NCBI RefSeq assembly: GCF_000687915.1
Contig: NZ_JHZY01000004.1
Coordinates: 1,746,001-1,810,000, forward strand
Length of the DNA: 64,000 nt
From: Leeuwenhoekiella sp. MAR_2009_132
GTDB taxonomy: Bacteria; Bacteroidota; Bacteroidia; Flavobacteriales; Flavobacteriaceae
Reading direction: 5' to 3'
Position 1 is the stretch's first letter. The number at the start of each line of letters is the position of its first letter. Shown here piece by piece: positions 3,645 through 33,386 of the stretch. Position numbers and translations under genes: made by a program. Below the pieces are notes generated by a model. It did no database searches, was not told where the DNA came from, and worked only from the letters and a program-made list of their open reading frames with translations.

Positions 3645-4031
3645 AATTAAATCGTTTAATGTTGTTTGTTATTAATACTGGCTTTTTTACAAGCTGCAAT
3701 AAAACAAATGTATGTGAAGGGTAACATGTGCACTAAAAGAAATGAAGCAAACACTGCGAATCTTGAAGCACGATTAGTTATAATCGTAATAAACACGTGG
3801 TTTTCAACGCATATTCTTTAAAACTTATATTAATTTAAAGTTAAATGTAAATGATTTAACCTTATCGATAGAAATACATAATGGAGTTTACTGAAAGTTC
3901 AATTTTGAAGTTTTTTTTGTTGAATTGATAATCTTAAAATCAAATTTTTAACTCTTCACCACATATCGATCACTTTCTATTTAGATTGAGAAATGAAAAT
4001 TTTATTTCAAAATAGAAGAGTTTAAAAATAA
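3645..4031. other. Non-coding region between susC-like and porP/sprF-like genes
   Basis: AT-rich stretch with no convincing ORF. The part next to 3644 should carry the susC-like promoter and 5' leader; the far end carries the terminator of the incoming minus-strand operon. I see no sigma/anti-sigma genes, tRNA or repeat in it. Confidence 0.6.
3705..3712 (-). promoter_or_regulatory. Candidate -7 promoter element for the susC-like gene
   Basis: Minus strand reads TACATTTG, matching the Bacteroidota consensus TAnnTTTG, about 60 bases upstream of the susC-like ATG. No TTG at the expected -33 spacing was found, so this is a weak call. Confidence 0.3.
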
Positions 4032-4067
4032 AGAAATCCGTATTTGTTTTATCAAATACGGATTTCT
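4032..4067 (-). terminator. Rho-independent terminator after the porP/sprF-like gene
   Basis: A perfect 15-bp inverted repeat (4032-4046 and 4053-4067) with a 6-base loop, followed on the minus strand by a T-rich run. It lies 65 bases beyond the stop codon at 4132 and ends the giant adhesin operon. Confidence 0.8.
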
Positions 4068-4131
4068 CTATGCGGTTTTGGAGCCTAAAAATTAGGCTAT
4101 ACCTAAAGCTATTTTAAATTAGAAATTGCAT

Positions 4132-5070
4132 TTAAAAGAATCGAGGAGTTAGCATACGATTGTATTCTTTAAATAATTCAAAGCGTAAGAATAATTCATA
4201 AGTACCATCATTGTAAGTTGCATTTCCTAAATCTGTACTTTCTCGATCGTATGCAAAGCCTATGAGTAAGCCGTCATTAACCTGAAAGCCTACTAAACCA
4301 CTTAAGGCAGCACTCCACCTGTAGGAAGCGCCTAGTGTTAGTTTGTCATAAAATAAAAAGTTTGCATTCACATCAACTGCTAGCGGTGCTCCCGCTACCA
4401 GTTTAACTAATGTAGAGGGTTTAAACTTTACATCTCTGTTTAAATCAAATACATAACCGGCTAAACCGTAATAATGAATACGCTCTTCTGCTAAAAATGT
4501 TTCTGCTCCTGCCGTACCGCTTCTATCAAAGTGAGAAGTCTGCAGGAGTTGAGGAGCAGATATTCCTCCATAAAACTTAGAATCGTGGTAAAATATACCT
4601 ACACCCACATTTGGAGAAAGCTTATTATCAATGTTAACTAAAAAAGGATCTCCCGAATTAAAAGGATTGGTTCTACTAAAGTCAACATCCAGTACATTTA
4701 ATGATCCTTTAATACCAAAGCTAAACTTCCCTTCTGCACCTGTTTCTATTGTGTAGCTAAAGTCTGCATTAAAATAAGTTTCCCGTGCGGGACCTAAAGC
4801 ATCATTTACAAGACTAAAACCAAGTCCTACTTTACCTAAACCTATAGGGCTGTGCACCGAAAGATTTTGTGTACGTGGCGCACCATCAAGACCCACCCAC
4901 TGGCTGCGGTGTAGAAGCAAAATGCTGGTTACACCGCGATTTCCCGCATAAGCAGGGTTAATTACTAATGGGTTGTACATATACTGTGTGTACTGCGGGT
5001 CTTGCTGAGAAAACCCGAATGTACAGCAGAGTAGGGCCGTTATGATTAAACATTTATTGAATATACTCAC
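4132..5070 (-). CDS. PorP/SprF family type IX secretion system outer membrane protein
   Basis: A 312-residue protein with a signal peptide (cleavage near FGFSQ, residue 21) followed by the family hallmark QDPQYTQYMYNPLVINPAYA and then GNRG and HRSQWVGLDGAPRT, typical of PorP/SprF membrane proteins. It is predicted to be a beta barrel and ends in RFF. In Flavobacterium johnsoniae, SprF is needed to export the giant adhesin SprB, and T9SS cargo with type B tails is generally paired with a PorP/SprF-like partner encoded next door. Here the gene starts 45 bases after the giant adhesin stop, fitting that role. The start is GTG at 5070, preceded by GAGAA; the ATG overlapping it at 5072 is in another frame. 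Confidence 0.93.
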   Translation of the reverse strand: MSIFNKCLIITALLCCTFGFSQQDPQYTQYMYNPLVINPAYAGNRGVTSILLLHRSQWVGLDGAPRTQNLSVHSPIGLGKVGLGFSLVNDALGPARETYFNADFSYTIETGAEGKFSFGIKGSLNVLDVDFSRTNPFNSGDPFLVNIDNKLSPNVGVGIFYHDSKFYGGISAPQLLQTSHFDRSGTAGAETFLAEERIHYYGLAGYVFDLNRDVKFKPSTLVKLVAGAPLAVDVNANFLFYDKLTLGASYRWSAALSGLVGFQVNDGLLIGFAYDRESTDLGNATYNDGTYELFLRFELFKEYNRMLTPRFF

Positions 5071-5115
5071 ATTCTCTTTTTTAAACTTGAATAAAGCGTG
5101 TTTCTTAATTTACTA

Positions 5116-5405
5116 TTAATTGATATATATGTATCCTGCTTTTGAACGGGGTGTTCCGTTTGCAGTTGCATAATTCAATACATAATAGTAGGTTCCGGTA
5201 GGTAATAACTTTCCGCTATCTATTGTTGTACGTCCATTAGAATATCCTGTAAATGCTGAACTTCCGGCTTGGCCATAGCCATCTTGACTAAATACTTCAA
5301 CACCCCAACGGTTAAATATTTTTAACGTATTATCTGGGAAGCGTTCTATTGCCCCTATGGTTAACTCATCATTAATACCATCTCCGTTTGGCGTAATAAC
5401 ATTAT
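5116..5405 (-). other. T9SS type B C-terminal sorting domain (gliding-motility-associated CTD)
   Basis: Encodes the last ~95 residues of the giant protein. It has the family pattern VYNVITPNGDGINDELTI, then NTLKIFNRWGVEVF, then LPTGTYYYVLNY and a closing GYIYIN strand. Such tails direct export through the type IX system and are found on SprB. The next gene is the PorP/SprF-like partner. Confidence 0.93.
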
Positions 5406-8400
5406 ATACAAATATGTCTTCTATAGAAAGTACCATTCTGGTAACATCATCTGGATCACCATTACCGTCTAAATCCTCATTTGTTGTGTTTGTAGGATCA
5501 TCAGAAATATCGGTAATAAGGGTGTTATTTTCAGTTGTACCAGTTACCGTTGCCGTATTATCTACATAGCCTGTAGCTACATCACGTTGCGTGATTTGAT
5601 ATACTGCAGAGAACGAAGTGAAATCTGATTCACCCGGCAATAGACTAATTGGTCCGCCTATCACAGTAACCTTACTATCTGTAATTGTAATATTATTTAA
5701 CACCACATTGCCGGTATTGTTAATCTGGAACGTGTAGTTAATGGTATCTCCAAAATCAGGAATACCATTATTATTTGAATCTACATATTCTGCCATTTTT
5801 AATAATTCTATACCGGGATTAGCCGTAATGACAAACGTAGTAGGATCTTCAAAATCACCATCGTTATCAATATCTAGATTGGTAGGATCTGCCGGGTTAT
5901 CCGAAAAATCATCTATTACAATTCCATTAACATCGGTCCCTGTAGCTAAGGCTATGTTCACAACCTCTCCCGCAAGTAAATCTGCCTGAGTGATAGTATA
6001 GGTAGCGCTAAACGTATTAGAATTGCTTTGACCTGGAGCAAGACTAATTGGTCCTCCAATAACTGCAACCATATCGTCTAAGATTGAAATGTCATTGATG
6101 GCTGTACTGCCATTATTTGTTACCGTAAAGCTATAGGTTAATACATCACCTGCACTTATTATTAAATCTCCATTAGTATCTGCATAGTTTACTTGTTTAA
6201 GCAGATCTAAATTAGAGTTTGCATTCAATAGGGTAACAGTTGCATCAGCATCACCACCGGTTTCATCTGCAGGGTTAGAACTATCGGAAATATCAGTAAT
6301 GACATTGTTACTGTCATCAGTTGCTGTTGCTGTAGCAGAGTTAACGACCTGACCACTATCTATATTCTGTTGTGTGATTAGATAATCTACTGTAACCGAA
6401 CCTTCTTCTCCAGGGTTTAAAGTTGAATTAGAGATCGCTATACCAGTCACTCCAATTTCAGCATCATCAATTGCGATATTGTTAAGAACTGTGTTTCCGG
6501 TATTGATAACTGTAAATGTATAGGTGATTAAATCACCTAGATTTACAATACCATCTGTATTTGCATCTACATAAATAGCACCTTTAGTAAGTTGCATACT
6601 TGATTCTAATACAATTATTGTTATAGTTGCGGTTGAGCAATTATTCGGATTCAGGTTTTCACAAACGGTGTATGTCACACGATAAGTTCCTGCTTTAGAA
6701 TTTGGAGAAACAATTATATTACCATTATTGTTTACAGAAACCCCAATTAATCCACCATTGTCAGCAATTGTAACATTAACGTCTGCTGAATCTATTGGGT
6801 TGCCATCTAAAGTGTCATTGCTAAGAACGTTACCTGCAACACCTCCTGTAATACCATTAATAGGAATACTACTGAAATTATCATCTTCTAAAATTAAACT
6901 ACTTGCTCCAACAACTACGGTAGCCGTTGCTGTCTGGCAGTTATTCGGATTTAGGTTTTCACAGATTGAATAGGTAATGGTATATGTACCCGCCGGTGTG
7001 TTTGGCGGAACAATCAAGTCACCATTATCATTAAGAGCTGCTCCACTTAACCCACCATTGTCTGATAGGCTTACAGCCACATCTGCAAAGTCAACCGCAA
7101 CGTTATCTAAGCTGTCATTTCCTAAGACATTACCAGCAACGCCACCATCTGCTCCGTTAACCGGTGTAGCACTAAAGTCATCGTTAGTGGCAACTAATTC
7201 ACTTGCAGCAACCACAACAGTTACAGTGGTAGTCGCACAATTATCAGGATTTAGTACTTCACATATACTGTAGCTTACCGTGTATGTTCCGGCCGGTGTA
7301 TTTGGTGGCACCACTAAGTTTCCATTTGCGTTAATAGCAGCACCGTTCAGTCCGCCATTGTTTACGATATAAACATCAGCATCTTCAACAGGATCTCCAT
7401 TCAAGGTATCATTAGCCGTTACATCGCCTACAATACCACCAGTTTTACCATTAACCGGAGTGTTACTGAAATCGTCTGCACCTGCAATTATTTCGCTGGC
7501 TCCAACAACTACAGTAGCCGTTGCTGTCTGGCAGTTATTCGGATTTAAGTTTTCACAAATTGAATAGGTAATGGTATATGTACCCGCCGGTGTGTTTGGC
7601 GGAACAATCAAGTTACCATTATCATTAAGAGCTACTCCACTTAATCCACCATTGTCTGATAGTGTTACAGCCACATCTGCAAAGTCAACCGCAACGTTAT
7701 CTAAGCTGTCATTTCCTAAGACATTGCCAGCAACGCCACCATCAGCTCCGTTAACCGGTGTAGCACTAAAGTCATCGTTAGTGGCAACTAATTCACTTGC
7801 AGCAACCACAACAGTTACAGTGGTAGTCGCACAATTATTAGGATTAAGAACCTCACAAATACTATAGCTTACCGTGTAAGTACCCGCCGGTGTATTTGGT
7901 GGAACTACTAAGTTTCCATTGGCATTAATAGCAGCACCGTTCAGTCCGCCATTGTTTACGATATAAACATCAGCATCTTCAACAGGATCTCCATTCAAGG
8001 TATCGTTAGCCGTTACATCACCTACGATTCCGCCAGTCTTACCATTAACCGGAGTGTTACTGAAGTCGTCTGCACCTGCAATTATTTCGCTGGCTCCAAC
8101 AACTACAGTAGCCGTTGCTGTCTGGCAGTTATTCGGATTTAAGTTTTCACAAATTGAATAGGTAATGGTATATGTACCCGCCGGTGTGTTTGGCGGAACA
8201 ATCAAGTCACCATTATCATTAAGAGCTACTCCACTTAATCCACCATTGTCTGATAGTGTTACAGCCACATCTGCTAAGTCAACAGCAGCGTTATCTAAGG
8301 TGTCATTTCCTAAGACATTACCAGCAACGCCACCATCAGCTCCGTTAACCGGTGTAGCGCTAAAGTCATCGTTAGTGGCAACTAAGTCACTTGCAGCAAC

Positions 8401-11400
8401 CACAACAGTTACCGTGGTAGTCGCACAATTATCAGGATTTAGTACTTCACATATACTGTAGCTTACCGTGTAAGTGCCCGCCGGTGTATTTGGTGGAACT
8501 ACTAAGTTTCCATTTGCGTTAATAGCAGCACCGTTCAGTCCGCCATTGTTTACGATATAAACATCAGCATCTTCAACAGGATCTCCATTCAAGGTATCAT
8601 TAGCCGTTACATCGCCTACAATACCACCAGTTTTACCATTAACCGGAGTGTTACTGAAGTCGTCTGCACCTGCAATTATTTCGCTAGCTCCAACAACTAC
8701 GGTAGCCGTTGCTGTCTGGCAGTTATTCGGATTTAGGTTTTCACAGATTGCATAGGTAATGGTATATGTACCCGCCGGTGTGTTTGGCGGAACAATCAAG
8801 TCACCATTATCATTAAGAGCTACTCCACTTAATCCACCATTGTCTGATAGGCTTACAGCCACATCGGCAAAGTCAACAGCAGCGTTATCTAAAGTGTCAT
8901 TTCCTAAGACATTACCAGCAACGCCACCATCAGCTCCGTTAACCGGCGTAGCACTAAAGTCATCGTTAGTGGCAACTAATTCACTTGCAGCAACCACAAC
9001 AGTTACAGTGGTAGTCGCACAATTATTAGGATTAAGAACCTCACAAATACTGTAGCTTACCGTGTATGTTCCGGCCGGTGTATTTGGTGGCACCACTAAG
9101 TTTCCATTTGCGTTAATAGCAGCACCGTTCAGTCCGCCATTGTTTACGATATAAATATCAGCATCTTCAACAGGATCTCCATTCAAGGTATCGTTAGCCG
9201 TTACATCACCTACAATACCACCAGTTTTACCATTAACAGGAGTGTTACTGAAATCATCTGCACCTGCAATTATTTCGCTGGCTCCAACAACTACGGTAGC
9301 CGTTGCTGTCTGGCAGTTATTCGGATTTAGGTTTTCACAAATTGAATAGGTAATGGTATATGTACCCGCCGGTGTGTTTGGCGGAACAATCAAGTCACCA
9401 TTATCATTAAGAGCTACTCCACTTAATCCACCATTGTCTGATAGGCTTACAGCCACATCTGCAAAGTCAACCGCAACGTTATCTAAGCTGTCATTTCCTA
9501 AGACATTACCAGCAACGCCACCATCAGCTCCGTTAACCGGTGTAGCGCTAAAGTCATCGTTAGTGGCAACTAATTCACTTGCAGCAACCACAACAGTTAC
9601 CGTAGTAGTCGCACAATTATCAGGATTAAGAACCTCACAAATACTGTAACTTACCGTGTAAGTACCCGCCGGTGTATTTGGTGGAACCACCAAATTTCCA
9701 TTGGCATTAATTGCAGCACCGTTCAGTCCGCCATTGTTTACGATATAGACATCAGCATCTTCAACAGGATCTCCATTCAAGGTATCGTTAGCCGTTACAT
9801 CACCTACGATTCCGCCAGTCTTACCATTAACAGGAGTGTTACTGAAATCGTCTGCACCTGCAATTATTTCGCTGGCTCCAACAACTACAGTAGCCGTTGC
9901 TGTCTGGCAGTTATTCGGATTTAAGTTTTCACAGATTGAATAGGTAATAGTATATGTACCCGCCGGTGTGTTTGGCGGAACAATCAAGTCACCATTATCA
10001 TTAAGAGCTACTCCACTTAATCCACCATTGTCTGACAGGCTTACAGCCACATCTGCAAAGTCAACAGCAGCGTTATCTAAGGTGTCATTTCCTAAGACAT
10101 TACCAGCAACGCCACCATCTGCTCCGTTAACCAGTGTAGCGCTAAAGTCATCGTTAGTTGCAACTAGATCTGCAGCTTCAACAGCTATTGTAGCAGTTGT
10201 AGTTAAGCAATTATTCGGATTTAAGTTTTCACAAACTGAATAGGTAATCGTATATGTACCTGCCGGAGTATTTGGTGGTACAATTAGATTTCCGTTGTCA
10301 TTAATACGGGCACCACTTAATCCGCCATTACTGGTTAGCGTTACATCAACGTCTGCAGCATCAATTGCAGCACCATTAAATGTATCGTTAACAAGAACGT
10401 TCCCGGCTATACCGCCATTAGGGCCACTTACTGGAGTTCCAATAAAATTATCTGGTGTAAGTATTAATGTAGATTGTCCCACATTAATTTGAACGCTCAC
10501 AGGTCCCGAACAATTGTTTGGATTTAAGTTCTCACAGATTGAGTAGGTTATTGTATATACGCCTGCAGGAGTTAATGGAGGAACACTTACGGTACCATCA
10601 TTATCAATCTCAACACCATTAAGTCCGCCACTGCTAACGAGCGTGATGTCTATATCATTATCATCTACAGCTGCGCCATTTAAAGTGTCATTATCTGTGA
10701 TGTCTCCAGCAATTCCGCCGCTTTGACCATCAACGATATTAGCTGTAAAATCATCTGCAATAGCTTCAATAGAAGTTGCATCAACTCGAATTATTACACT
10801 AGCCGTGGTACAATTATTTGGATTTAAGTTTTCACAGATTACATAGCTCACCGTATAGTCTCCTGCAGGTGTTCCTGATGGAATCGTAAAACTTCCGTCT
10901 GCATTTAGTTCAAGGCCGTCTAAACCACCTGTGTTTACTAATTGAAGTGTAACATCTGATGCTGCTATAGCATTTCCATCGAGAGAATCGTTGTTTAAAA
11001 CACTTGGAGTTATTCCTCCTGTAAAACCATTAACAGAGTCTCCGGTGAAATTATCATTCAGCGCAACTATAGCAGGTGCTACAACAGTAATTAAAATCGT
11101 AGCACTATCACAATTGTTAGCATTTAGGTTTTCGCAAATCTGATAAATAACACTGTAATTTCCGGCATTTGTATTTGAAGGAATAGTTACAATTCCATTT
11201 ACATCAATACTTAAACCATTTATTCCGCCATTATCCACAAGACTTAATGTAACTGCAGTTGGATCTACAGCTGTATTGTTCAGTAAATCATTATCTAAAA
11301 TACCATTAAGAGTACCGCCTTGATAACCATTTATTTGAGATGCTGTAAGATCATCATCATTTGCATTTAGCGTACCGGCACCTACACTGAGCGTTGTGGA

Positions 11401-26400: not shown

Positions 26401-29400
26401 GTCTGTATCTGGTACAGGTAGAGGTATTCCTATAACACCAAATGCTATGTCAGAATTACCTTCACGGTCGTCATAAGGATCTAAAATATCTGCCAGACCA
26501 TCTGCATCTGCATCATTAGCAATACCGGCACCATAACGACCATCTCCACCCGCATCTGTACCGCCGGCTTCTATAGCATCTACAATACCATCATTGTCTG
26601 AATCTAGATCAATAAAATCTGGGTTATTAGTCCCTGCTGTATTAGGAATCGCAAGATTTGAGTCTGTTGAAGTTTGATCTGTGGTCACCGCTAAAGGAAT
26701 ACCATTGTCATTTACTTCGGTATTATCTAAAACTCCTATTCCCGGTTGACCGTTTCCGTCAGGATCATCTGTACCGCCTGCTTCGCGATAGTCTGGAATA
26801 CCATCATTATCTGTATCTAAATCAAAATAATTAGGAATACCATCTCCGTCTTTGTCTGAAGGATTTGTTCTTGGGTTGTTATCTCCATCTTCGTTGAAAT
26901 CTTCATCAGTATCCAAAATACCATCATTATCATCGTCTAAGTCAACGATGTCATTAATGCCGTCACCATCATTATCTTGTGCTGAAGCTTCTCTCCAGTC
27001 TCTATCGCCACCAGCAGGGTCTAAATCTGGCTGGTCATTTGGGGTTTGACCGCCATTTGTAGCATTACCGGCAGTTCCTGTTCCAGAAACAGTATCGTAA
27101 ATATCAGCGAGACCATCACCATCAGAATCGGTAAATTGATTTGGCTCAAGAATACCATCAGCCCGCTGAGTAAATAAATCATCTACAGTAGTATTGTTTT
27201 CTAGATAGTCAAAAATCCCATCATTTTCAGAATCTACATCTGCGTAATCTGGAGCAGAACCACCATCTGTGTTTGTATATCCTATACCTGCGCCCCCGTT
27301 ATCTACATCATATGCATTATCTATACCGTCGCTGTCGGTATCTATTCCTGATGGTGCAACATAGACTGAAGTTGATTGACCTTCTATATTATCAATAATA
27401 CCATCATTGTCAATATCTATATCCAGATAATTCTTAATCCCATCACTATCTCTGTCTTGATTAAAACCGAAACTATCCAAAACATTGCCGCCAAAATCAC
27501 GATCATTTGTATCTGCAAGACCATCTTCATCACTATCTGCAGGAGTTCCTGTGCCTACAATACCATTGTTATCACCGTCAACTATTTGAAAGTTTCCTTC
27601 AAAAGTATCTGGTAAGCCATCACTATCAGAATCAAGATCCAAATAGTTGGGTAATACATCTGTATCTGAATTTAGAAAAGCAGGAAATGTAACTTCAGCA
27701 TCGATAGCATCGTGCCACCCATTATTGTCTGTGTCCGCAAAGCCATCAACTATCCCGTCGTTATTTGTGTCGTTATAAGAGTTGTTATTTGAAAAGGCTT
27801 CTGTTGTATCTGAAAGACCATCATTGTCTGAATCTCTATCGAGAAAGTCGTAAAGGGTGGCTTTTATATCTGAAGAGGCATCTGTATTTCGTACTGTAAA
27901 ATTAGGTGTACCGCTATCTGCTGAAGTTTCTAAGAAATCTGCAAAACCATTAGTTCCAAAAGTGGAAGTATCTACAAGACCATCATTATTTGTATCTGCA
28001 AGACCAGCTTCTATAACATCTGGAATAGCGTCATTATCTGCATCCAGATCTAAATGGTTAGGTATCCCATCACCGTCAAAGTCAAAACCTGCGGCTATAC
28101 CATTAGCATCAAGCGCAGCAAAATCTGCATCTAGATAGTTAGGCACACCATCAGCATCAGCGTCTGCGGTAGGGTCTGTACCTTGTCCTTCAATAGTATC
28201 TAGAATACCATCGTTATCTGAGTCTAAATCGACAATATCTGCAATACCATCACCGTCTGAATCTATATCTATGGTAATTGTAAGTATAGCTGTATCTGTG
28301 CCACCGTTTCCATCTGTAATACTATATTCTGCTGAAGGTACAAGACCTGTATAGTCAGTTTCCGGAATGAATATGTAACTACCGTTTCCGTATATTTGTA
28401 GACTACCTACACCTGTAATAGAAGCTGTTTGACCAGCAGTATAATTAGAACCACCTATTGTAAATGAGGTGATTGTTAGCGTATCGCCGTCTGCATCTGT
28501 GTCATTTAGTAATAAATCTCCCGGGGTGTTATCTCCTATTGAGAGTGTAATGTTTTGAGTTGTTGAATTAAAATCATCAACCGCAATAGGATTTGCATTT
28601 ACACTAAGGAGCGCCGCTTCTGAAGTGGTAGTACCACAAACATAATTTTCATCTGTAATAATTACCTGATATTGGTAATTGTCATATGTGTAGGGTACTG
28701 CGGTTAGGGTAAGAATATTTGTTGTACTTCCTGTATATATTCCTGTATCAGAAAGCGTTGTAAAACTCGTGCCATTATCTGTGCTAACCTGCCATACATA
28801 GCTTAATGAAACACCACTTGCATCTACACTAAAGGTTGCATTTTCAGTTTCATTAATAGATTGATCTGTAGGTTGAGTATTTATTGCAGGAGCAGATCCT
28901 GCTGTAGTCACATCTACATTTGTACCGGGATATGTTGCCCCCTGTACAGTACCATCAGCATTTACAGCAGGGGGATTCCCCGTACCGTAAAATTCATTAT
29001 CGCCACCATCTGTATTTGCATCACCATACGCCTCATTTGCGTCGCTACAACCATCATCATCAGAATCTGTATCTAAATAATCTGGTGTGCCATCGCCGTC
29101 AGAATCTAAGCCACACGATAGTATTGAGAAAGGCAGTGCTGTTTTAGATATTGTACTGCTTTGATAACTCACCGTTAGAACTGCACCACCACCATTTTCA
29201 TAGAATAATACGGTTATTGGATAAAGACCTGCATTTAAATTTATTGCACCACTTGCCTCTCTAGGACCGTGATCACCATCATTATTTACAACCTCAATAC
29301 CGTTAATAATTAATTTTGAGCCGTCGTCAGAATTTGTGAAAAAGGTATACGTATCTGCAGTGGCAATATTTATTAATCCGGTATATCGAATTGCATAGGT

Positions 29401-31641
29401 GTCTGTGTCGCCTGGATCTACTGTATTTTGAAGTGAGTTGACATCAAAATTACCTACTGTGCCTGTTGCCAGAGCTCCAGTTGTAGGAATATTATCTACT
29501 GTTAAACCAGGAGGTATTAAATCATAAAATTCATAAGATACTGAAGCTAAACAAGAAGCTTCTTCATCAGTATCTAATATCCCATCATTATCATCATCAA
29601 GATCACAAGCGTCTGGCACACCATCATTATCTGCATCAATAGAATTATCAAAATCAGGACAAATGTCTTCAGCATTTATAACGCCATCACCATCATCATC
29701 ACAACGAGGTGAAGTAATAGCGTTATTTGTACTGCTCACATCATCTTGACCATTGTTTACAAGTGTAGGTATCCCATTTGTATTTATATTTCCCAGCAAG
29801 AAACCACCGGCATTGACCGAGGCCAAACTAATAGACGTATTGCTTCCTTCGAGAGCATCAAAACAGCCATCGTTATCTGCATCTGTATCTAAATAATCTG
29901 CAGTATCTGCACCGTCTGTATTTCTAGGGGTTACAGCAATTCCTCCGGAACATGGAGCGGTAAGTGTAAACGTACTCCTAAGGTTATCAATACCTATCAC
30001 ACGTGATCCATTATCTGTAACCATCGAAAGTCTAATAAATCTAGCCTGACTCCCTGTAACCGTATAATTATAGTTTGTAGCCGCAGTTGTAGTGTAACGG
30101 ATTGTTTGAAGGTTTGTAAATGTTGAACCATCTATAGATTGTTCTATTCCTAAATCGTAAACAGACCCTGTGCCTCCTGATAGATTTGATCGTACCTGTA
30201 AAATTTCACCAACGGGTATGGCATCAGAAAGTCTTAAAACTAATACATCATCTGTAGTGTCTAAAATCGCAAAATTATCATCCTGAGCGCCCAGAGCATT
30301 ACCAGCATTTGTCACGGCAAATTGGCTATATACAGAGCTAGCTGTAACATTAAAAGTACTGGTCGCACCATTACATTCGGGGTCTACCTGATCTGAGACA
30401 CCGTTTGTATTTGCATCTACAAAATTATCAACTTTACCATCTTTGTTACTATCTGTCTGCCCGCTTTCAAAAATATCTAGAAGTCCGTCATTATCAGAAT
30501 CAAGATCAAACTGATTTATAATCCCGTCTAAGTCATAATCGTAATTATCATTTACTCCATCATTATTAGAATCTATAAAACCAGCTATATCTGGGTCTTG
30601 ATAATTTAATATACCATCCAGATCATCATCTTCACTAGCATTGGGCAAACCTGGGCTTTCAACCGTGTCTAAAATACCGTCATCATCATCGTCTAAGTCA
30701 ACAACATCTGTTATACCATCCTGATCATAGTCTGCAGGAGATGATGCAAATAATTGATTAATAAATAAACCAGAATCAAAAGTTGCATCACCTGTATCAC
30801 CTATAGCGATTTTAAAAGTATATGATACACCAGAAGATAATCCTGTTATTTTACCGGTTTGAGGAGTAGTTAAACCATTAAACTCTACAAATACCGGAGC
30901 TATATTTCCACCGTTATTACAAGCGCCGGGACCATCGTGACCATTGTTGATGTAATTTTGAGTTTGTCCTAAATCTGCAAATGAGCCGTCTTGTGCACAA
31001 CCTAAAAATCCTGCATTAACATTATTCACAGATACAGGATTCCCATTAGGGAGTACCCCTAAGTTTCTACTTCCTGAAATACCTGGTCCAGAAATAAAAT
31101 AGCCGAAGGCATCATTAAAAACAGATCCTACATAATCAGGGTATTCTTCAGACCCAAAAATGGAAGTGATATTTAACTCTGAGTAACCTGGGTCTAGCGT
31201 TACATTAAACGTTAAAACTACCACATCAAACCGTGCATTGTTATCTATACTACGTAATTGAGCATCGTTGTATGTAGTTGGTCCCGGAGCATTTATGCTT
31301 GCATTAGGTATATCATTCGCTGAAAAGGCTGTAGTAACATTAGATGTAGTTATGGCAACACCTGTATTGATATCTAGATTTGCACCGGCATTACCATTAC
31401 TAAAAATAGCTAACTGAGAGTTTCTATCTCCTGTGATTAAGCTAAAATTTGTAATCGTTACACCTTCTCCGCTTAACTGATTAACAATTGCCGCGTCTGA
31501 AGGATTTGCAGAAAATGTAGCCTGACTATAACCCTGAAATGTTGCAGAACCACCTAAAAAGAGAATAAAAAAAAGAGAAACTAATTTTATTCTATCAATT
31601 TGAATAGAAAAAAACAAAAATCGAGAAGTAATTTTATTCAT
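5116..31641 (-). CDS. Giant repetitive T9SS type B surface adhesin (SprB-like architecture), about 8,841 aa
   Basis: One unbroken frame of 26.5 kb. Approximate layout by residue: signal peptide 1-40 (start MNKITSRF); choice-of-anchor L domain 41-300; Asp-rich thrombospondin-type-3 (probable Ca-binding) repeats from 300 to about 2,030, interrupted by a discoidin-like domain near 430-560, a PA14 domain near 690-845 and Ig-like plus cadherin-like domains near 920-1,125; Ig-like and cadherin-like domains to 2,429; 20 repeats of 89 aa to 4,209; 6 repeats of 92 aa to 4,763; two unique domains; 15 repeats of 100 aa 4,959-6,459; seven divergent copies; 198-aa double repeats 7,156-8,245; three DUF7507-like domains; and a T9SS type B sorting domain in the last 95 residues (ITPNGDGINDELTI ... 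KIFNRWGVEVF). The ATG at 31641 is chosen because it opens the signal peptide; the only longer start is a TTG at 31668. Cell-surface adhesion or gliding is inferred from architecture. Mass is roughly 0.9 MDa. Confidence 0.95.
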   Translation of the reverse strand: MNKITSRFLFFSIQIDRIKLVSLFFILFLGGSATFQGYSQATFSANPSDAAIVNQLSGEGVTITNFSLITGDRNSQLAIFSNGNAGANLDINTGVAITTSNVTTAFSANDIPNASINAPGPTTYNDAQLRSIDNNARFDVVVLTFNVTLDPGYSELNITSIFGSEEYPDYVGSVFNDAFGYFISGPGISGSRNLGVLPNGNPVSVNNVNAGFLGCAQDGSFADLGQTQNYINNGHDGPGACNNGGNIAPVFVEFNGLTTPQTGKITGLSSGVSYTFKIAIGDTGDATFDSGLFINQLFASSPADYDQDGITDVVDLDDDDDGILDTVESPGLPNASEDDDLDGILNYQDPDIAGFIDSNNDGVNDNYDYDLDGIINQFDLDSDNDGLLDIFESGQTDSNKDGKVDNFVDANTNGVSDQVDPECNGATSTFNVTASSVYSQFAVTNAGNALGAQDDNFAILDTTDDVLVLRLSDAIPVGEILQVRSNLSGGTGSVYDLGIEQSIDGSTFTNLQTIRYTTTAATNYNYTVTGSQARFIRLSMVTDNGSRVIGIDNLRSTFTLTAPCSGGIAVTPRNTDGADTADYLDTDADNDGCFDALEGSNTSISLASVNAGGFLLGNINTNGIPTLVNNGQDDVSSTNNAITSPRCDDDGDGVINAEDICPDFDNSIDADNDGVPDACDLDDDNDGILDTDEEASCLASVSYEFYDLIPPGLTVDNIPTTGALATGTVGNFDVNSLQNTVDPGDTDTYAIRYTGLINIATADTYTFFTNSDDGSKLIINGIEVVNNDGDHGPREASGAINLNAGLYPITVLFYENGGGAVLTVSYQSSTISKTALPFSILSCGLDSDGDGTPDYLDTDSDDDGCSDANEAYGDANTDGGDNEFYGTGNPPAVNADGTVQGATYPGTNVDVTTAGSAPAINTQPTDQSINETENATFSVDASGVSLSYVWQVSTDNGTSFTTLSDTGIYTGSTTNILTLTAVPYTYDNYQYQVIITDENYVCGTTTSEAALLSVNANPIAVDDFNSTTQNITLSIGDNTPGDLLLNDTDADGDTLTITSFTIGGSNYTAGQTASITGVGSLQIYGNGSYIFIPETDYTGLVPSAEYSITDGNGGTDTAILTITIDIDSDGDGIADIVDLDSDNDGILDTIEGQGTDPTADADADGVPNYLDADFAALDANGIAAGFDFDGDGIPNHLDLDADNDAIPDVIEAGLADTNNDGLVDTSTFGTNGFADFLETSADSGTPNFTVRNTDASSDIKATLYDFLDRDSDNDGLSDTTEAFSNNNSYNDTNNDGIVDGFADTDNNGWHDAIDAEVTFPAFLNSDTDVLPNYLDLDSDSDGLPDTFEGNFQIVDGDNNGIVGTGTPADSDEDGLADTNDRDFGGNVLDSFGFNQDRDSDGIKNYLDIDIDNDGIIDNIEGQSTSVYVAPSGIDTDSDGIDNAYDVDNGGAGIGYTNTDGGSAPDYADVDSENDGIFDYLENNTTVDDLFTQRADGILEPNQFTDSDGDGLADIYDTVSGTGTAGNATNGGQTPNDQPDLDPAGGDRDWREASAQDNDGDGINDIVDLDDDNDGILDTDEDFNEDGDNNPRTNPSDKDGDGIPNYFDLDTDNDGIPDYREAGGTDDPDGNGQPGIGVLDNTEVNDNGIPLAVTTDQTSTDSNLAIPNTAGTNNPDFIDLDSDNDGIVDAIEAGGTDAGGDGRYGAGIANDADADGLADILDPYDDREGNSDIAFGVIGIPLPVPDTDGDGFPDYLDLDSDDDTIPDNVEGQSTLGYRPRLEVDSDKDGLDDAYDSTDNVGIPIIPVNTDGTDVPDYLDLDSDNDLLFDIVEAGNATADTDNDGQTNTAVGNNGLDNNFDNADTYVDVNGILDDTQADNFPDEDADVNTGGDVDYRDIQDTDGDGVADAIDLDDDNDGILDTAENGGIDPTLDSDGDGIPNYKDSDSAGFVDSNSDFVDDNFDTDLDGIIDQYDNDSDGDGCNDANEAYNSATADADGNGYYGIGNPPAVNTDGTVIGAAYPGTNANVTTAGAAPVIDVQPADQLINEGENATFSVDATGATLNFQWQLSTDNGATFTDLANTGIYSGTTTSTLTLTAVPYSHDNYQYQVIVTDNSYICDFTASTPPALLSVNGLPVAVDNSNTTFEDVAINVIDDSADDLLQNDTDADGDLLTIISFTFNGVSYTVGDPAFIDGVGTLTINSNGSYTFVPFVNFNGILPAITYTITDGGATDTASLNITVISTPDAVDDAFTTNEDTPIRNDLFANNGSGTDDLGTEPTTAALTTGTTNGTVNVNANGTFTYTPNADFNGSDSFTYTITDANGQTSTATATITIIATPDAVDDAFTTNEDTPVTGNLFADNGNGIDDLGTESTTAAIETAATNGTAVVNSDGTFTYTPNADFNGSDSFTYTITDANGQTSTATVTITVAPVADALADTFNATEDTPLSEDVSTNDTYSAAATYAYNNNTDNGGTVVMAADGTFEYTPAPDFAGEETFTYTVTDVNGTTETVSVTITVAPVADALADTFNATEDTPLSEDVSTNDTYSAAATYAYNNNTDNGGTVVMAADGTFEYTPAPDFAGEETFTYTVTDVNGTTETVSVTITVAPVADALADTFNATEDTPLSEDVSTNDTYSAAATYAYNNNTDNGGTVVMAADGTFEYTPAPDFAGEETFTYTVTDVNGTTETVSVTITVAPVADALADTFNATEDTPLSEDVSTNDTYSAAATYAYNNNTDNGGTVVMAADGTFEYTPAPDFAGEETFTYTVTDVNGTTETVSVTITVAPVADALADTFNATEDTPLSEDVSTNDTYSAAATYAYNNNTDNGGTVVMAADGTFEYTPAPDFAGEETFTYTVTDVNGTTETVSVTITVAPVADALADTFNATEDTPLSEDVSTNDTYSAAATYAYNNNTDNGGTVVMAADGTFEYTPAPDFAGEETFTYTVTDVNGTTETVSVTITVAPVADALADTFNATEDTPLSEDVSTNDTYSAAATYAYNNNTDNGGTVVMAADGTFEYTPAPDFAGEETFTYTVTDVNGTTETVSVTITVAPVADALADTFNATEDTPLSEDVSTNDTYSAAATYAYNNNTDNGGTVVMAADGTFEYTPAPDFAGEETFTYTVTDVNGTTETVSVTITVAPVADALADTFNATEDTPLSEDVSTNDTYSAAATYAYNNNTDNGGTVVMAADGTFEYTPAPDFAGEETFTYTVTDVNGTTETVSVTITVAPVADALADTFNATEDTPLSEDVSTNDTYSAAATYAYNNNTDNGGTVVMAADGTFEYTPAPDFAGEETFTYTVTDVNGTTETVSVTITVAPVADALADTFNATEDTPLSEDVSTNDTYSAAATYAYNNNTDNGGTVVMAADGTFEYTPAPDFAGEETFTYTVTDVNGTTETVSVTITVAPVADALADTFNATEDTPLSEDVSTNDTYSAAATYAYNNNTDNGGTVVMAADGTFEYTPAPDFAGEETFTYTVTDVNGTTETVSVTITVAPVADALADTFNATEDTPLSEDVSTNDTYSAAATYAYNNNTDNGGTVVMAADGTFDYTPAPDFAGDETFTYTVTDVNGTTETVSVTITVAPVADAVADTFNATEDTPLSEDVSTNDTYSAAATYAYNNNTDNGGTVVMAADGTFEYTPAPDFAGEETFTYTVTDVNGTTETVSVTITVAPVADALADTFNATEDTPLSEDVSTNDTYSAAATYAYNNNTDNGGTVVMAADGTFEYTPAPDFAGEETFTYTVTDVNGTTETVSVTITVAPVADAVADTFNATEDTLLSEDVSTNDTYSAAATYAYNNNADNGGTVVMAADGTFEYTPAPDFAGEETFTYTVTDVNGTTETVSVTITVAPVADALADTFNATEDTPLSEDVSTNDTYSAAATYAYNNNADNGGTVVMAADGTFEYTPAPDFAGEETFTYTVTDVNGTTETVSVTITVAPVADALADTFNATEDTPLSEDVSTNDTYSAAATYAYNNNTDNGGTVVMAADGTFDYTPAPDFAGEETFTYTVTDVNGTTETVSVTITVAPVADALADTFNATEDTPLSEDVSTNDTYSAAATYAYNNNADNGGTVVMAADGTFEYTPAPDFAGEETFTYTVTDVNGTTETVSVTITVAPVADALADTFNATEDTPLSEDVSTNDTYSAAATYAYNNNTDNGGTVVMAADGTFEYTPAPDFAGEETFTYTVTDVNGTTETVSVTITVADVIDIVADADTTLEDTAVTTAVLDNDTFQGTYGTDYTITATTDPTNGTITLNTDGTITYLPNPDFNGTDSYTYSVTDVNGAVSTETVSITITPVVDIVADADTTLEDTAVTTAVLDNDTFQGTYGTDYTITATTDPANGTITLNTDGTITYLPNPDFNGTDSYTYSVTDVNGAVSTETVSITITPVVDIVADADTTLEDTAVTTAVLDNDTFQGTYGTDYTITATTDPTNGTITLNTDGTITYLPNPDFNGTDSYTYSVTDVNGVVSTETVSITITPVVDIVADADTTLEDTAVTTAVLDNDTFQGTYGTDYTITATTDPTNGTITLNTDGTITYLPNPDFNGTDSYTYSVTDVNGAVSTETVSITITPVVDIVADADTTLEDTAVTTAVLDNDTFQGTYGTDYTITATTDPTNGTITLNTDGTITYLPNPDFNGTDSYTYSVTDVNGAVSTETVSITITPVVDIVADADTTLEDTAVTTAVLDNDTFQGTYGTDYTITATTDPANGTITLNTDGTITYLPNPDFNGTDSYTYSVTDVNGAVSTETVSITITPVVDSENDIVSTPNEQAIEIDVLINDTEVPTLGTLSVSVSPANGTVSILDNGTPNDPSDDSILYTPNDNFFGIDTFEYTVCDQNGGCDKATVTVTVDEAIITAVDDDLTATPIPGDTGATGIVNVLDNDLKNNQPVDPTEVSITPITVGPLTVNADGSVDVAPKTSQGNYSIEYTICEIANPTNCETAVVTVVVAPAVLVANADDFSANPITGQTGGVAGDVTTNDTLNGDPVDDGDITISVANNGGLPGVTIDADGSVIVPAATPAGTYDITYSICENLNPTNCETAVVTVVVAPAVLVANTDDFSANPITGQTGGVAGDVTTNDTLNGDPVDDGDITISVADNGGLPGVTIDADGSVIVPAATPAGTYDITYSICENLNPTNCETAVVTVVVAPAVLVANADDFSANPITGQTGGVAGDVTTNDTLNGDPVDDGDITISVANNGGLSGVTIDADGSVIVPAATPAGTYDITYSICENLNPDNCETAVVTVVVAPAVLVANADDFSANPITGQTGGVAGDVTTNDTLNGDPVDDGDITISIADNGGLNGVTIDADGSVIVPAATPAGTYDITYSICENLNPTNCETAVVTVVVAPAVLVANTDDFSANPITGQTGGVAGDVTTNDTLNGDPVDDGDITISVADNGGLNGVTIDADGSVIVPAATPAGTYDITYSICENLNPTNCETAVVTVVVAPAVLVANTDDFSANPITGQNGGVAGDVTANDTLNGDPVDDGDITISVADNGGLFGVTIDADGSVIVPAATPAGTYDITYSICENLNPTNCETAVVTVVVAPAVLVANTDDFSANPITGQTGGVAGDVTANDTLNGDPVDDGDITISVADNGGLNGVTIDADGSVIVPAATPAGTYDITYSICENLNPDNCETAVVTVVVAPAVLVANADDFSANPITGQTGGVAGDVTTNDTLNGDPVDDGDITISVADNGGLSGVTIDADGSVIVPAATPAGTYDITYSICENLNPTNCETAVVTVVVAPAVLVANADDFSANPITGQTGGVAGDVTTNDTLNGDPVDDGDITISVADNGGLSGVTIDADGSVIVPAATPAGTYDITYSICENLNPTNCETAVVTVVVAPAVLVANADDFSANPITGQTGGVAGDVTTNDTLNGDPVDDGDITISVANNGGLSGVTIDADGSVIVPAATPAGTYDITYSICENLNPDNCETAVVTVVVAPAVLVANADDFSANPITGQTGGVAGDVTTNDTLNGDPVDDGDITISIADNGGLNGVTIDADGSVIVPAATPAGTYDITYSICENLNPTNCETAVVTVVVAPAVLVANTDDFSANPITGQTGGVAGDVTTNDTLNGDPVDDGDITISVADNGGLNGVTIDADGSVIVPAATPAGTYDITYSICENLNPTNCETAVVTVVVAPAVLVANTDDFSANPITGQNGGVAGDVTANDTLNGDPVDDGDITISVADNGGLFGVTIDADGSVIVPAATPAGTYDITYSICENLNPTNCETAVVTVVVAPAVLVANTDDFSANPITGQTGGVAGDVTANDTLNGDPVDDGDITISVADNGGLNGVTIDADGSVIVPAATPAGTYDITYSICENLNPDNCETAVVTVVVAPAVLVANADDFSANPITGQTGGVAGDVTANDTLNGDPVDDGDITISVADNGGLNGVTIDADGSVIVPAATPAGTYDITYSICENLNPDNCETAVVTVVVAPAVIGAEPDDFSATPINGLTGGIAGDVTANDTFNGAPVDDDDVFISDDGGIQGASIDNDGSLIIPPGTPAGTYTIIYTICENLNPGNCSSAPITIVIAAATIDAVADNFSTTPINGYEGGNTTSVFGNDTLNETGFNNNKVRSSIIDNDGISGLSILSNGVLVIPSETPAGTYTISYQICEALNPSNCDTAEVTIVISEPAIIAVNDDFSARTINGIEGGSAGNVLNNDTISGDQADATTVTISVLNDGGVSGITISPNGVVIIPANTPAGTYTVDYQICDVLNPSNCSTASTTLSVGAGTLNANDDDLTASQINGYQGGTLNGILDNDLLNNTAVDPTAVTLSLVDNGGINGLSIDVNGIVTIPSNTNAGNYSVIYQICENLNANNCDSATILITVVAPAIVALNDNFTGDSVNGFTGGITPSVLNNDSLDGNAIAASDVTLQLVNTGGLDGLELNADGSFTIPSGTPAGDYTVSYVICENLNPNNCTTASVIIRVDATSIEAIADDFTANIVDGQSGGIAGDITDNDTLNGAAVDDNDIDITLVSSGGLNGVEIDNDGTVSVPPLTPAGVYTITYSICENLNPNNCSGPVSVQINVGQSTLILTPDNFIGTPVSGPNGGIAGNVLVNDTFNGAAIDAADVDVTLTSNGGLSGARINDNGNLIVPPNTPAGTYTITYSVCENLNPNNCLTTTATIAVEAADLVATNDDFSATLVNGADGGVAGNVLGNDTLDNAAVDFADVAVSLSDNGGLSGVALNDNGDLIVPPNTPAGTYTITYSICENLNPNNCQTATATVVVGASEIIAGADDFSNTPVNGKTGGIVGDVTANDTLNGDPVEDADVYIVNNGGLNGAAINANGNLVVPPNTPAGTYTVSYSICEVLNPDNCATTTVTVVVAASELVATNDDFSATPVNGADGGVAGNVLGNDSLDNVAVDFADVAVSLSDNGGLSGVALNDNGDLIVPPNTPAGTYTITYSICENLNPNNCQTATATVVVGASEIIAGADDFSNTPVNGKTGGIVGDVTANDTLNGDPVEDADIYIVNNGGLNGAAINANGNLVVPPNTPAGTYTVSYSICEVLNPNNCATTTVTVVVAASELVATNDDFSATPVNGADGGVAGNVLGNDTLDNAAVDFADVAVSLSDNGGLSGVALNDNGDLIVPPNTPAGTYTITYAICENLNPNNCQTATATVVVGASEIIAGADDFSNTPVNGKTGGIVGDVTANDTLNGDPVEDADVYIVNNGGLNGAAINANGNLVVPPNTPAGTYTVSYSICEVLNPDNCATTTVTVVVAASDLVATNDDFSATPVNGADGGVAGNVLGNDTLDNAAVDLADVAVTLSDNGGLSGVALNDNGDLIVPPNTPAGTYTITYSICENLNPNNCQTATATVVVGASEIIAGADDFSNTPVNGKTGGIVGDVTANDTLNGDPVEDADVYIVNNGGLNGAAINANGNLVVPPNTPAGTYTVSYSICEVLNPNNCATTTVTVVVAASELVATNDDFSATPVNGADGGVAGNVLGNDSLDNVAVDFADVAVTLSDNGGLSGVALNDNGNLIVPPNTPAGTYTITYSICENLNPNNCQTATATVVVGASEIIAGADDFSNTPVNGKTGGIVGDVTANDTLNGDPVEDADVYIVNNGGLNGAAINANGNLVVPPNTPAGTYTVSYSICEVLNPDNCATTTVTVVVAASELVATNDDFSATPVNGADGGVAGNVLGNDSLDNVAVDFADVAVSLSDNGGLSGAALNDNGDLIVPPNTPAGTYTITYSICENLNPNNCQTATATVVVGASSLILEDDNFSSIPINGITGGVAGNVLSNDTLDGNPIDSADVNVTIADNGGLIGVSVNNNGNIIVSPNSKAGTYRVTYTVCENLNPNNCSTATITIIVLESSMQLTKGAIYVDANTDGIVNLGDLITYTFTVINTGNTVLNNIAIDDAEIGVTGIAISNSTLNPGEEGSVTVDYLITQQNIDSGQVVNSATATATDDSNNVITDISDSSNPADETGGDADATVTLLNANSNLDLLKQVNYADTNGDLIISAGDVLTYSFTVTNNGSTAINDISILDDMVAVIGGPISLAPGQSNSNTFSATYTITQADLLAGEVVNIALATGTDVNGIVIDDFSDNPADPTNLDIDNDGDFEDPTTFVITANPGIELLKMAEYVDSNNNGIPDFGDTINYTFQINNTGNVVLNNITITDSKVTVIGGPISLLPGESDFTSFSAVYQITQRDVATGYVDNTATVTGTTENNTLITDISDDPTNTTNEDLDGNGDPDDVTRMVLSIEDIFVYNVITPNGDGINDELTIGAIERFPDNTLKIFNRWGVEVFSQDGYGQAGSSAFTGYSNGRTTIDSGKLLPTGTYYYVLNYATANGTPRSKAGYIYIN
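5406..6600 (-). repeat. Three DUF7507/DUF11-like Ig-fold domains in the giant adhesin
   Basis: Three related units of about 130 residues, each with the pattern 'YxDxNxDGxxxxGDxxxYxFxVxNTGxxxLxNIxIxD' and a later 'YxITQxD' strand. They are diverged from each other, unlike the tandem arrays further upstream in the gene, and probably form the membrane-proximal stalk. Confidence 0.8.
6908..10174 (-). repeat. Higher-order tandem repeat, 594 bp (198 aa), 5.5 copies
   Basis: Two alternating ~99-residue domains (one starting IIAGADDFSNTPVNGKTGG, the other LVATNDDFSATPVNGADGG) repeat as a pair every 594 bp. The marker ccaacaactac recurs at 6908 + n x 594 up to 9878. Five complete pairs plus one extra half unit are present. 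Each domain contains the Cys pair C-x7-C. The paired period shows that the array grew by duplication of two-domain blocks. Confidence 0.93.
10175..12264 (-). repeat. Seven diverged ~97-99 aa copies of the same domain family
   Basis: Seven domains related to the flanking arrays (each with a 'DDF/DNF ... GGxxGxVxxNDTxNG ... PAGTYxIxYxICENLNPxNC' layout) but clearly diverged from one another. They separate the homogeneous 300-bp array from the 594-bp array and look like old single copies. Confidence 0.85.
12265..16764 (-). repeat. Tandem array of 15 x 300 bp (100 aa)
   Basis: Fifteen in-frame copies of a 100-residue domain that begins APAVLVANADDFSANPITGQ and ends in CENLNPTNCETAVVTVVV, with exact 300-bp spacing. 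Copies differ by a few bases and by residues at a few fixed spots (A/T before DDF; N/D and P/S/N/F around the NGGL motif). Copies 3-7 match copies 10-14, showing a secondary seven-unit duplication. Confidence 0.95.
17351..19006 (-). repeat. Tandem array of 6 x 276 bp (92 aa)
   Basis: Six nearly identical 92-residue cadherin-like units (VADADTTLEDTAVTTAVLDN ... PDFNGTDSYTYSVTDVNG). The marker accaccggag recurs at 17351, 17627 and onward every 276 bp. Units contain no Cys. Substitutions are few (T/A in 'DPTNG', A/V in 'DVNGAV'). Confidence 0.95.
19016..24355 (-). repeat. Tandem array of 20 x 267 bp (89 aa), nearly identical copies
   Basis: Exactly twenty in-frame copies of an 89-residue cadherin-like unit (VADALADTFNATEDTPLSED ... 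PDFAGEETFTYTVTDVNG). The marker gctaccgtgatgg starts at 19016 and again at 24356 after 20 periods of 267 bp. The first twelve copies (N-terminal side, higher coordinates) are identical in protein and differ by a few silent bases; the C-terminal eight carry all the amino acid changes (E/D, T/A, AL/AV, P/L). Confidence 0.96.
25600..28260 (-). repeat. Asp-rich thrombospondin type 3-like repeats of the giant adhesin
   Basis: Dense irregular repeats of the type 'DxDxDGIPDYLDLDSDNDGI', each about 12-40 residues, continuing again at about 28990-29110 and 29560-30740 around inserted domains. Such repeats bind calcium in other proteins; calcium binding here is inferred from the regular DxDxDG spacing. 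They are irregular and diverged, unlike the later arrays. Confidence 0.88.
29105..29570 (-). other. PA14-type domain within the giant adhesin
   Basis: Encodes about 150 residues with the PA14 layout: YEFYDLIPPGL near the start, then TYAIRYTGLINI, TYTFFTNSDDGSKLIINGIE, and ITVLFYENGGGAVLTVSYQ. PA14 domains are beta-barrel modules that often bind carbohydrate, so this may be a receptor-binding part of the adhesin. Confidence 0.8.
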
Positions 31642-32069
31642 AAAGCAAGAATTAAAGTTGGGATGCAATTCTTAAAATGCAGTTTAAAAACATTAAATTT
31701 AAAGGACAGTGTTAACATCTTTGCAATTTTGTTGATAAACGACGCTTAAATATCGTCAAATATACGTAATAAAGCGATAAATGGGTTTTTAAGCTCTTGC
31801 AGGATTAATTATTTTTTAGTAGGAAAATTCCTTAAGTCTTTATATTTTTTACATTTCCGACATTATTATTTATAAACTATTATTATAGATAATAAATATT
31901 CCTTGTATTGAGCATAAATTACTCTAGGATATCTCTATGATTTTTATGTTAAAATTTTAATATTTTTATAGCAATCGTTTTCGCTTTGCCTTCAGAAAGG
32001 TTTTTTTATGAATTTTATATGATTTTCAAGAGGATAGAACTTGTATATTCTAGCAATAAAAATAATTAT
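31642..32069. other. Divergent intergenic region between the giant adhesin and the GreA/GreB-like gene
   Basis: About 430 bases, strongly AT-rich, with no ORF I would call a gene. It must carry the promoter for the 26.5-kb adhesin operon and for the plus-strand elongation factor gene. A minus-strand TATATTTG at 31757-31764 matches TAnnTTTG about 115 bases from the adhesin ATG, without a clear -33 partner. Confidence 0.55.
31757..31764 (-). promoter_or_regulatory. Candidate -7 element for the giant adhesin operon
   Basis: Minus strand TATATTTG fits the TAnnTTTG consensus; it would give a leader of roughly 110 bases before the ATG at 31641. No TTG lies at the expected distance, so it is only a candidate. 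Confidence 0.27.
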
Positions 32070-33224: not shown

Positions 33225-33386
33225 TTAATCGCCCGTGACATCTTTGACTTGGGTAGCCTTTAAAATAGCTTTTAGTTTATCTGCTCTCAATTGTTTGTCA
33301 TCACGTAATTTGTCTTTTTTGCGCTTGAGCAGCTTTGTGTGTAATGCCTTGTTTTTTCCGTTCTTGGGAGTTCCTCGCTTTGCCAT
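33225..33386 (-). CDS. Small very basic conserved protein (53 aa)
   Basis: A short frame starting MAKRGTPKNGKNKALHTKLL and continuing with a Lys/Arg-rich helix, then ending KATQVKDVTGD. More than a third of the residues are Lys or Arg, and there are no Cys. Its ATG overlaps the stop codon of brnQ by one base (TAATG), a strong hint of translational coupling and that the gene is real. The composition suggests a nucleic-acid- or ribosome-associated peptide, but I do not recognise a named family. Confidence 0.72.
   Translation of the reverse strand: MAKRGTPKNGKNKALHTKLLKRKKDKLRDDKQLRADKLKAILKATQVKDVTGD

Follow-up and report, generated by a model that had tools for sequence, protein, structure and literature searches.

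We found that the carboxy-terminal residues of PorP/SprF-family outer-membrane carriers track the presence of a neighboring PorE gene: among 204 carriers, PorE adjoins 113 of the 148 that end in PR[FY]x, none of the 45 that end in Cys-X-Cys, and none of the 11 with other tails. The tail classes follow clades, and the link is not significant once the tree is taken into account. One carrier of the first kind is encoded in the window, the 64,000-nucleotide stretch C4:1746001-1810000 of a Leeuwenhoekiella genome of 4.28 Mb in five contigs, where it follows a gene for a giant T9SS type B surface protein in the same orientation. This carrier lacks a C-tail Cys-X-Cys handle, and on that ground we take the giant to be, most likely, an adhesive cable that stays in place, as opposed to a gliding foot that moves. 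We tentatively propose that the carrier tail may be a two-way destination code, with Cys-X-Cys leading to the moving GldK track and PRFF to PorE and the stationary wall, and that the giant would be a fixed cable whose PorE is supplied in trans.

Gene Pair and Domain Layout

The giant frame occupies 5116-31668 on the minus strand, running unbroken from a TTG through 8,850 aa with zero internal stops. Its first ATG is codon 10, which gives a protein of 8,841 aa, 904,005 Da, and pI 4.05 (Table 1). Translation thus confirmed the single open frame of 26.5 kb described in the first-pass annotation, and the rest of that description held as well: a type B tail, a PorP/SprF-like neighbor, and a perfect terminator. 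The carrier gene begins 45 nt past the stop of the giant gene, and its adjacency suggests that the product serves the giant. It ends in ...NRMLTPRFF, with zero cysteines after the signal peptide, and three carriers of L. nanhaiensis and L. parthenopeia are 82-89% identical to it. Neither the carrier alone, nor its tail piece, nor the carrier profile matched a solved structure.

No PorE gene lies beside the carrier. The next gene after the terminator encodes a SusC-like receptor (570-3644), and the intervening 487 nt hold no 100-aa frame. On its far side, the giant gene is flanked by a GreA/GreB-like factor on the opposite strand. A match to TAnnTTTG, which we take to be the Bacteroidota −7 consensus, precedes the giant gene.

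Table 1. Features of the giant gene, its carrier, and their flanks, in window coordinates (residue numbers refer to the frame counted from TTG)
Feature	Position	Strand	Basis
Giant type B T9SS protein, 8,841 aa from first ATG	5116..31641	(-)	Frame translation; TTG start at 31668 possible
Signal-peptide-like N-terminus, about 40 aa	31522..31641	(-)	Hydrophobic stretch ending GYSQ, by eye from translation
Choice-of-anchor L (head), residues 60-305	30754..31491	(-)	NF038133, 154.8 bits
F5/8 type C (discoidin)-like, weak, residues about 488-555	30004..30207	(-)	PF00754, 19.0 bits (cut-off 28.2)
PA14, residues 753-844	29137..29412	(-)	PF07691, 43.4 bits
Long aspartate-rich thrombospondin-3-like DxDxDG stretch, residues 1135-2010, possibly Ca-binding	25639..28266	(-)	By eye
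Tandem-95 / Big_9 cadherin-like stalk, approximate limits	17059..25221	(-)	Repeat and profile searches
100-aa repeats, one C-x7-C pair each (35 pairs)	6604..17061	(-)	Repeat and pattern searches
Three DUF7507 (DUF11-like) domains, approximate limits	5434..6606	(-)	PF24346, 203.4 bits, 3 stretches
Type B C-terminal sorting domain (CHU_C)	5122..5412	(-)	PF13585, 91.5 bits; TIGR04131, 37.2 bits
PorP/SprF-family outer-membrane carrier, 312 aa, GTG start	4132..5070	(-)	PF11751, 302.7 bits; TIGR03519, 279.1 bits
Carrier C-tail ELFKEYNRMLTPRFF, PRFF end, no cysteine	4135..4179	(-)	Translation
Stem-loop terminator, 17-bp perfect	4030..4069	(-)	Folds at -21.6 kcal/mol, z = -6.9 vs shuffles; TATTTTT behind
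TAnnTTTG (Bacteroidota -7 type) match, 115 nt before ATG	31757..31764	(-)	No -33 box by eye

The head contains the choice-of-anchor L and PA14 domains named in the earlier annotation; the discoidin-like domain named along with them is weak and scores below its cut-off. Aspartate-rich thrombospondin-3-like runs also appear by eye between choice-of-anchor L and the F5/8C-like stretch. An Ig/Big_9 block, seen in the Pfam scan, separates PA14 from the long aspartate-rich block, which itself matched no Pfam or NCBIfam family.

The first part of the stalk consists of 20 copies of an 89-aa unit, several of them DNA-identical, and about six copies of a 92-aa unit. It matches the tandem-95 / Big_9 profiles at 338.1 bits (NF012211, cut-off 90) and 358.4 bits (PF17963). 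TRF yields the four repeat arrays that had been reported, and one further array, with a double unit of 198 aa (about aa 7167-8256), exceeds its 500-nt limit. The tail matches two type B profiles, CHU_C and TIGR04131; the second, with a cut-off of 35, scored just over it in the genome scan and just under it in the piece scan (33.9 bits).

Integrity of the Giant Frame

A gene of this size could be an assembly artefact, or a decaying gene with the wrong number of repeats. The 89-aa units are 97-100% identical in DNA to one reference unit, and the same assembly breaks at a paralogous giant (contigs C2, C3, C4, and C5), both of which would fit such an error. Against it, the frame stays open across its whole length, and among the 15 near-identical 100-aa units, divergence from the first amounts to 14-29 synonymous and only 2-5 nonsynonymous codon changes. 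In addition, a second Leeuwenhoekiella genome has an orthologue at the same site, whose frame stays open for at least 8,605 codons, up to the contig end, and shows equal repeat periods. Taken together, these observations place the frame beyond chance, and the synonymous bias and the orthologue led us to reject an artefact as highly improbable. The assembled copy number of the near-identical units may be off.

At the paralogous locus, where the assembly breaks, lies another gene for a giant adhesin (a 4,380-aa frame on C3, with DNA repeats 336 nt apart), together with a carrier and PorE. Contig C3 overlaps the ends of C4 (99.7%) and C2 (99.0%), and C5 contains a further stretch of the repeats of this gene. 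In the window, the G+C content of the repeat arrays (6001-24000) is 0.39-0.47, compared with 0.34-0.39 in the flanks.

A Cysteine-Paired Repeat of 100 Residues

About 40% of the chain is built from some 35 copies of a 100-aa unit, in which 35 C-x7-C pairs occur (CENLNPTNC and variants). Fifteen near-identical copies lie at 12268-16767 with a 700-aa super-period, and the remaining units form a diverged set and the 198-aa double units at about 6901-10170. Within the near-identical array, units 3-7 match units 10-14 at 99.3-100% DNA identity, which indicates a recent duplication of seven units.

Pfam scans returned no convincing family for this repeat, and the names that did appear (CopC, CarboxypepD_reg, NPCBM_assoc, and others) were rejected as scattered, and none of the leading names had a stretch that passed by itself. 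CarboxypepD_reg was matched by 7 of 12 repeat rows and Big_9 by 3 of 12, a pattern that makes an Ig-like fold likely, if unproven. A PDB search with the repeat gave weak matches only (E 0.34 and 0.64). Its profile matches 46 of 149 family genomes, a count in which many weaker matches, largely included without a C-x7-C check, are possibly other Ig-like repeats. The strict C-x7-C repeat pattern is found in 8 of 110 related giants, once each in seven of the eight. We consider the unit a candidate for a new domain family, in which the cysteine pair could act as a disulfide staple. Outside the Bacteroidota, a Sulfurovum “internalin” has 11 matches to the C-x7-C repeat pattern.

Orthologue and Distribution in the Genus

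The orthologue in the second genome is flanked by relatives of the window genes at 33386, 34715, 35882, 37662, 40161, 40972, and 42381 in the same order; among them are a branched-chain transporter (33386), a hydrolase (34715), ThiL (35882), and SufB (37662). Its C-terminal 638 aa most likely sit at the start of another contig, where a carrier comes next, again without PorE, at 86% identity to the window carrier. The orthologue retains the 89-, 92-, and 100-aa periods, and its CTD is 76% identical to the window CTD. The marker motif of the 89-aa units occurs 20 times in the window giant versus zero times in the orthologue, and the first 500 or so residues of the orthologue are another head than that encoded at 29869-31641 in the window. 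A search with the head found matches in 2 of 13 genomes, the match in the second covering the aspartate-rich part alone. The stalk thus appears to be homogenized within each lineage and the head exchanged between species, with the CTD and carrier kept.

In the 11 other genomes of the genus, the flanks retrieved around ThiL, used as the marker gene (10-16 kb in total), had no carrier match and no frame longer than 1,009 aa. The locus is therefore patchy in the genus.

Carriers, Tails, and PorE within the Genome

The genome contains seven PorP/SprF matches, corresponding to six distinct genes and one broken duplicate on contig C3. All three carriers that are followed by PorE end in PRFF, as the window carrier does. 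A C-tail Cys-X-Cys occurs in one carrier alone, a stand-alone gene at C4:1947502-1948512 (...YECNCPAIN). The sixth carrier (C4:700028) belongs to neither tail class: it ends in ...SYRLGEGYTK and has a type B gene before it and no PorE. The three PorE-linked CTDs share 43-55% identity with the window CTD, against 35% for the CTD of the C4:700028 pair and 24-26% for three orphan CTDs. By both carrier end and CTD, the window pair groups with the PorE-linked pairs.

The window carrier is 88% identical to the carrier of a PorE operon on C2, with the last 17 residues identical. In 10 of the 12 other Leeuwenhoekiella genomes we found a PorE operon of the C2 kind. The PorE genes of the genome, from which we judged availability, comprise three beside other carriers and a stand-alone one at C4:948326-950269 (48% identity, no carrier in its 1.5-kb flanks). 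Each of the three beside carriers has PD40 and OmpA domains, two have CarboxypepD_reg, and one has a sub-cut-off TPR. SprA (2,245 bits), GldJ (1,047 bits), and GldK (608 bits, with the RGCF cysteine) are also encoded, and therefore both type B export and the gliding track are available.

The three orphan type B proteins have CTDs that are 52-59% identical among themselves and form a separate group from that of the window; we infer that they may be the natural clients of the Cys-X-Cys carrier. In F. johnsoniae, three orphan type B proteins share one orphan carrier (PMC12618676). The stand-alone Cys-X-Cys SprF and three orphan type B proteins found here mirror that set of one shuttle and three clients.

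SprB repeats (PF13573, E ≤ 0.001) have 14 matches in the genome and none in the giant gene, in agreement with the earlier claim that the giant uses other repeats than SprB. At C4:986178-988982, a 1,607-aa frame carries 13 SprB repeats, and its tail matches type A (Por_Secre_tail, 67.4 bits in total) and not type B. SprB repeats can therefore occur apart from the type B route.

Carrier Tail and PorE Adjacency across Carriers

The comparison of tails began from 227 loci, a nonrandom set of 80 named loci, two groups of 30 (the nearest to the window carrier and the nearest to the Cys-X-Cys carrier), 12 stretches from this genome, 15 from the genus, and 60 picked by hand from ranked lists. They yielded 220 carrier frames, of which 204 were counted after 14 duplicates and two of odd length had been dropped. 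Tail classes were defined after viewing the carriers of this genome, and neighboring PorE and CTD genes were called by small own-genome profiles, iterated once, so that a distant PorE was possibly missed.

With relatedness ignored, the difference between the PR[FY]x and Cys-X-Cys classes has a Fisher P of 2.6 × 10−22. A first pass over 144 proteins had given PorE beside 83 of 112 versus 0 of 29. After clustering at 60% identity (41 clusters), PR[FY]x carriers fell into 18 clusters mostly with PorE and three without, and none of the 11 Cys-X-Cys clusters had it; the one cluster with PorE among the nine “other” clusters is mixed, with a single row from each of the “other” and PR[FY]x classes. 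The window carrier is one of the 35 PR[FY]x carriers with no adjacent PorE. A type B CTD lies upstream of 135 PR[FY]x carriers and 17 Cys-X-Cys carriers, and Cys-X-Cys carriers are therefore not orphans only.

On a tree built without the tails, the tail classes are clade-linked, PorE adjacency changes at least 18 times, and four independent pairs can be drawn, of which three to four agree with the link and none disagrees. Tested against this phylogeny, the link is not significant (P = 0.125-0.25). The rule is therefore clean, with few independent events behind it.

No statement joining carrier tail type with PorE was found in the literature searched, which left supplements and most subscription papers outside; this is no proof that the link is unpublished. 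In the available parts of two closely related papers, PorE occurs zero times (PMC12635249) and cysteine occurs twice, both in a single reference-list entry (PMC12618676).

A Fixed or a Moving Adhesin

Work on SprF and SprB provides the background for reading the tail. The Cys-X-Cys of the SprF C-tail forms a disulfide to GldK; it is required for gliding and dispensable for surface display of SprB, and SprB still made short helical runs without the cysteines (Liu 2025, PMC12635249). Such runs imply that a missing Cys-X-Cys is compatible with brief movement. Some type B proteins move, Fjoh_3952, in an operon with PorE, shows static foci only, and the mobile type B proteins named in the same study have no PorE gene in their operon (Paillat 2025, PMC12618676). 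The window carrier, having no C-tail Cys-X-Cys, would therefore not be bound covalently to GldK of the gliding track.

We think that the pair is probably a secretion-and-anchoring cassette, with the giant as a static adhesin tethered to peptidoglycan by a PorE made elsewhere. By analogy with homologues, the giant would cross Sec and then the T9SS translocon SprA by means of its type B CTD, and the cognate PorP/SprF barrel would collect it and hold it at the surface. An Ig/cadherin-like domain is about 3.5-4 nm long, and the 65-70 such domains predicted in a row would make a long acidic stalk, reaching a few hundred nm if stretched. The cysteine pairs of 35 domains could staple each of them, and the head of choice-of-anchor L, discoidin-like, and PA14 domains would be outermost. 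Both the CTD and the PRFF tail belong to the type that occurs with a PorE gene. The likely function would be cell-surface or cell-cell adhesion.

The absent operon PorE is the weak point of this static reading. PorE would have to come in trans, either from the paralogous operon or from the stand-alone gene; the close match to the C2 carrier, together with the stand-alone gene, makes such a supply plausible. A direct contact between PRFF and PorE is hypothetical.

Alternatively, the giant may be a gliding adhesin like SprB, in which case its carrier would ride the GldJKN track and pull the giant over the surface of the cell. The shared adhesin-carrier gene order and the presence of GldJ, GldK, and SprA would allow this, and Fjoh_4750 provides a case of a non-SprB adhesin that moves (PMC12618676). 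We regard gliding as unlikely here: the mature carrier has no cysteine, while another carrier of the same genome has the Cys-X-Cys, the CTD and carrier group with PorE-linked ones, and the giant has no SprB repeats. The far-side gene is also the GreA/GreB-like factor and not sprC/sprD, which we take to lie beside sprB in F. johnsoniae. The first-pass annotation had called the giant SprB-style and supposed that it probably moves on, or stands out from, the cell surface; standing out is the better half of that claim, and the carrier tail speaks against movement. Orthology to SprB on the strength of the gene plan was likewise rejected on the carrier tail, the repeats, and the CTD grouping.

The giant could also be mainly shed, as a matrix or biofilm cable or as a coat against phage and predators, with adhesion secondary. 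Its size, acidity, and expandable repeats would suit a matrix fiber, and RemA, a type A substrate, is partly released (PMC12618676). Release accompanied type A CTDs in that work, however, type B proteins bind a PorP-like carrier (PMC9143113), and a dedicated carrier gene has been retained in the window, so we find shedding decidedly unlikely.

Relation to Known Systems

A static, carrier-held giant resembles several described systems, of which those of P. gingivalis and F. johnsoniae were compared by description. One is the Fjoh_3952/Fjoh_3951/Fjoh_3950 set of F. johnsoniae (a static type B adhesin, a PorP/SprF-like carrier, and a PorE-like protein), which shares the pair of type B CTD protein and carrier and, by our reading, the static state; PorE is adjacent there and absent beside the window carrier. 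In Porphyromonas gingivalis, PorP is bound to the peptidoglycan-binding PorE (PMC9143113), and the PG1035-PorP-PorE system likewise has a type B protein held by a PorP barrel, with a single type B substrate. SprB/SprF of Flavobacterium johnsoniae shares the order of a giant type B protein followed by a PorP/SprF gene. The window pair differs from it in the absence of SprB repeats and of a C-tail Cys-X-Cys, in its neighbors, and in the mass of the giant, which is indeed larger than SprB, as first noted (904 vs 669 kDa; PMC9143113).

The combination of parts in one chain had been described as unusual, which overstates the case. Among 538 candidates scored, a set from which longer proteins are possibly absent, a match to the head region was found for 110 relatives, 4,864-7,980 aa long, of which many have CHU_C. 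They are tandem-95 or “gliding motility-associated-like” giants, for example of Polaribacter, Flavobacterium, and Aquirufa; many have Big_9/tandem-95 stalks with a CHU_C tail and many have F5/8C parts; the window giant is longer, at 8,841 aa, and the C-x7-C pattern is shared by the eight noted above. The giant therefore joins a known, widespread kind and is not a new system; it adds one large case to a known class. One giant listed as a Daphnia sinensis protein has a flavobacterial domain make-up and is probably bacterial contamination of that assembly.

Implications of the Tail Rule

If the tail rule holds, an adhesin gene followed by a SprF-like gene is, by itself, a poor guide to gliding. 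The rule is testable, and it bears on a question printed in 2025, namely which type B adhesins ride the track and which stay. If it holds, gliding feet and fixed adhesins could be distinguishable in many Bacteroidota genomes, and if the destination code is true, the C-terminus of the carrier could reveal where most type B adhesins end up.
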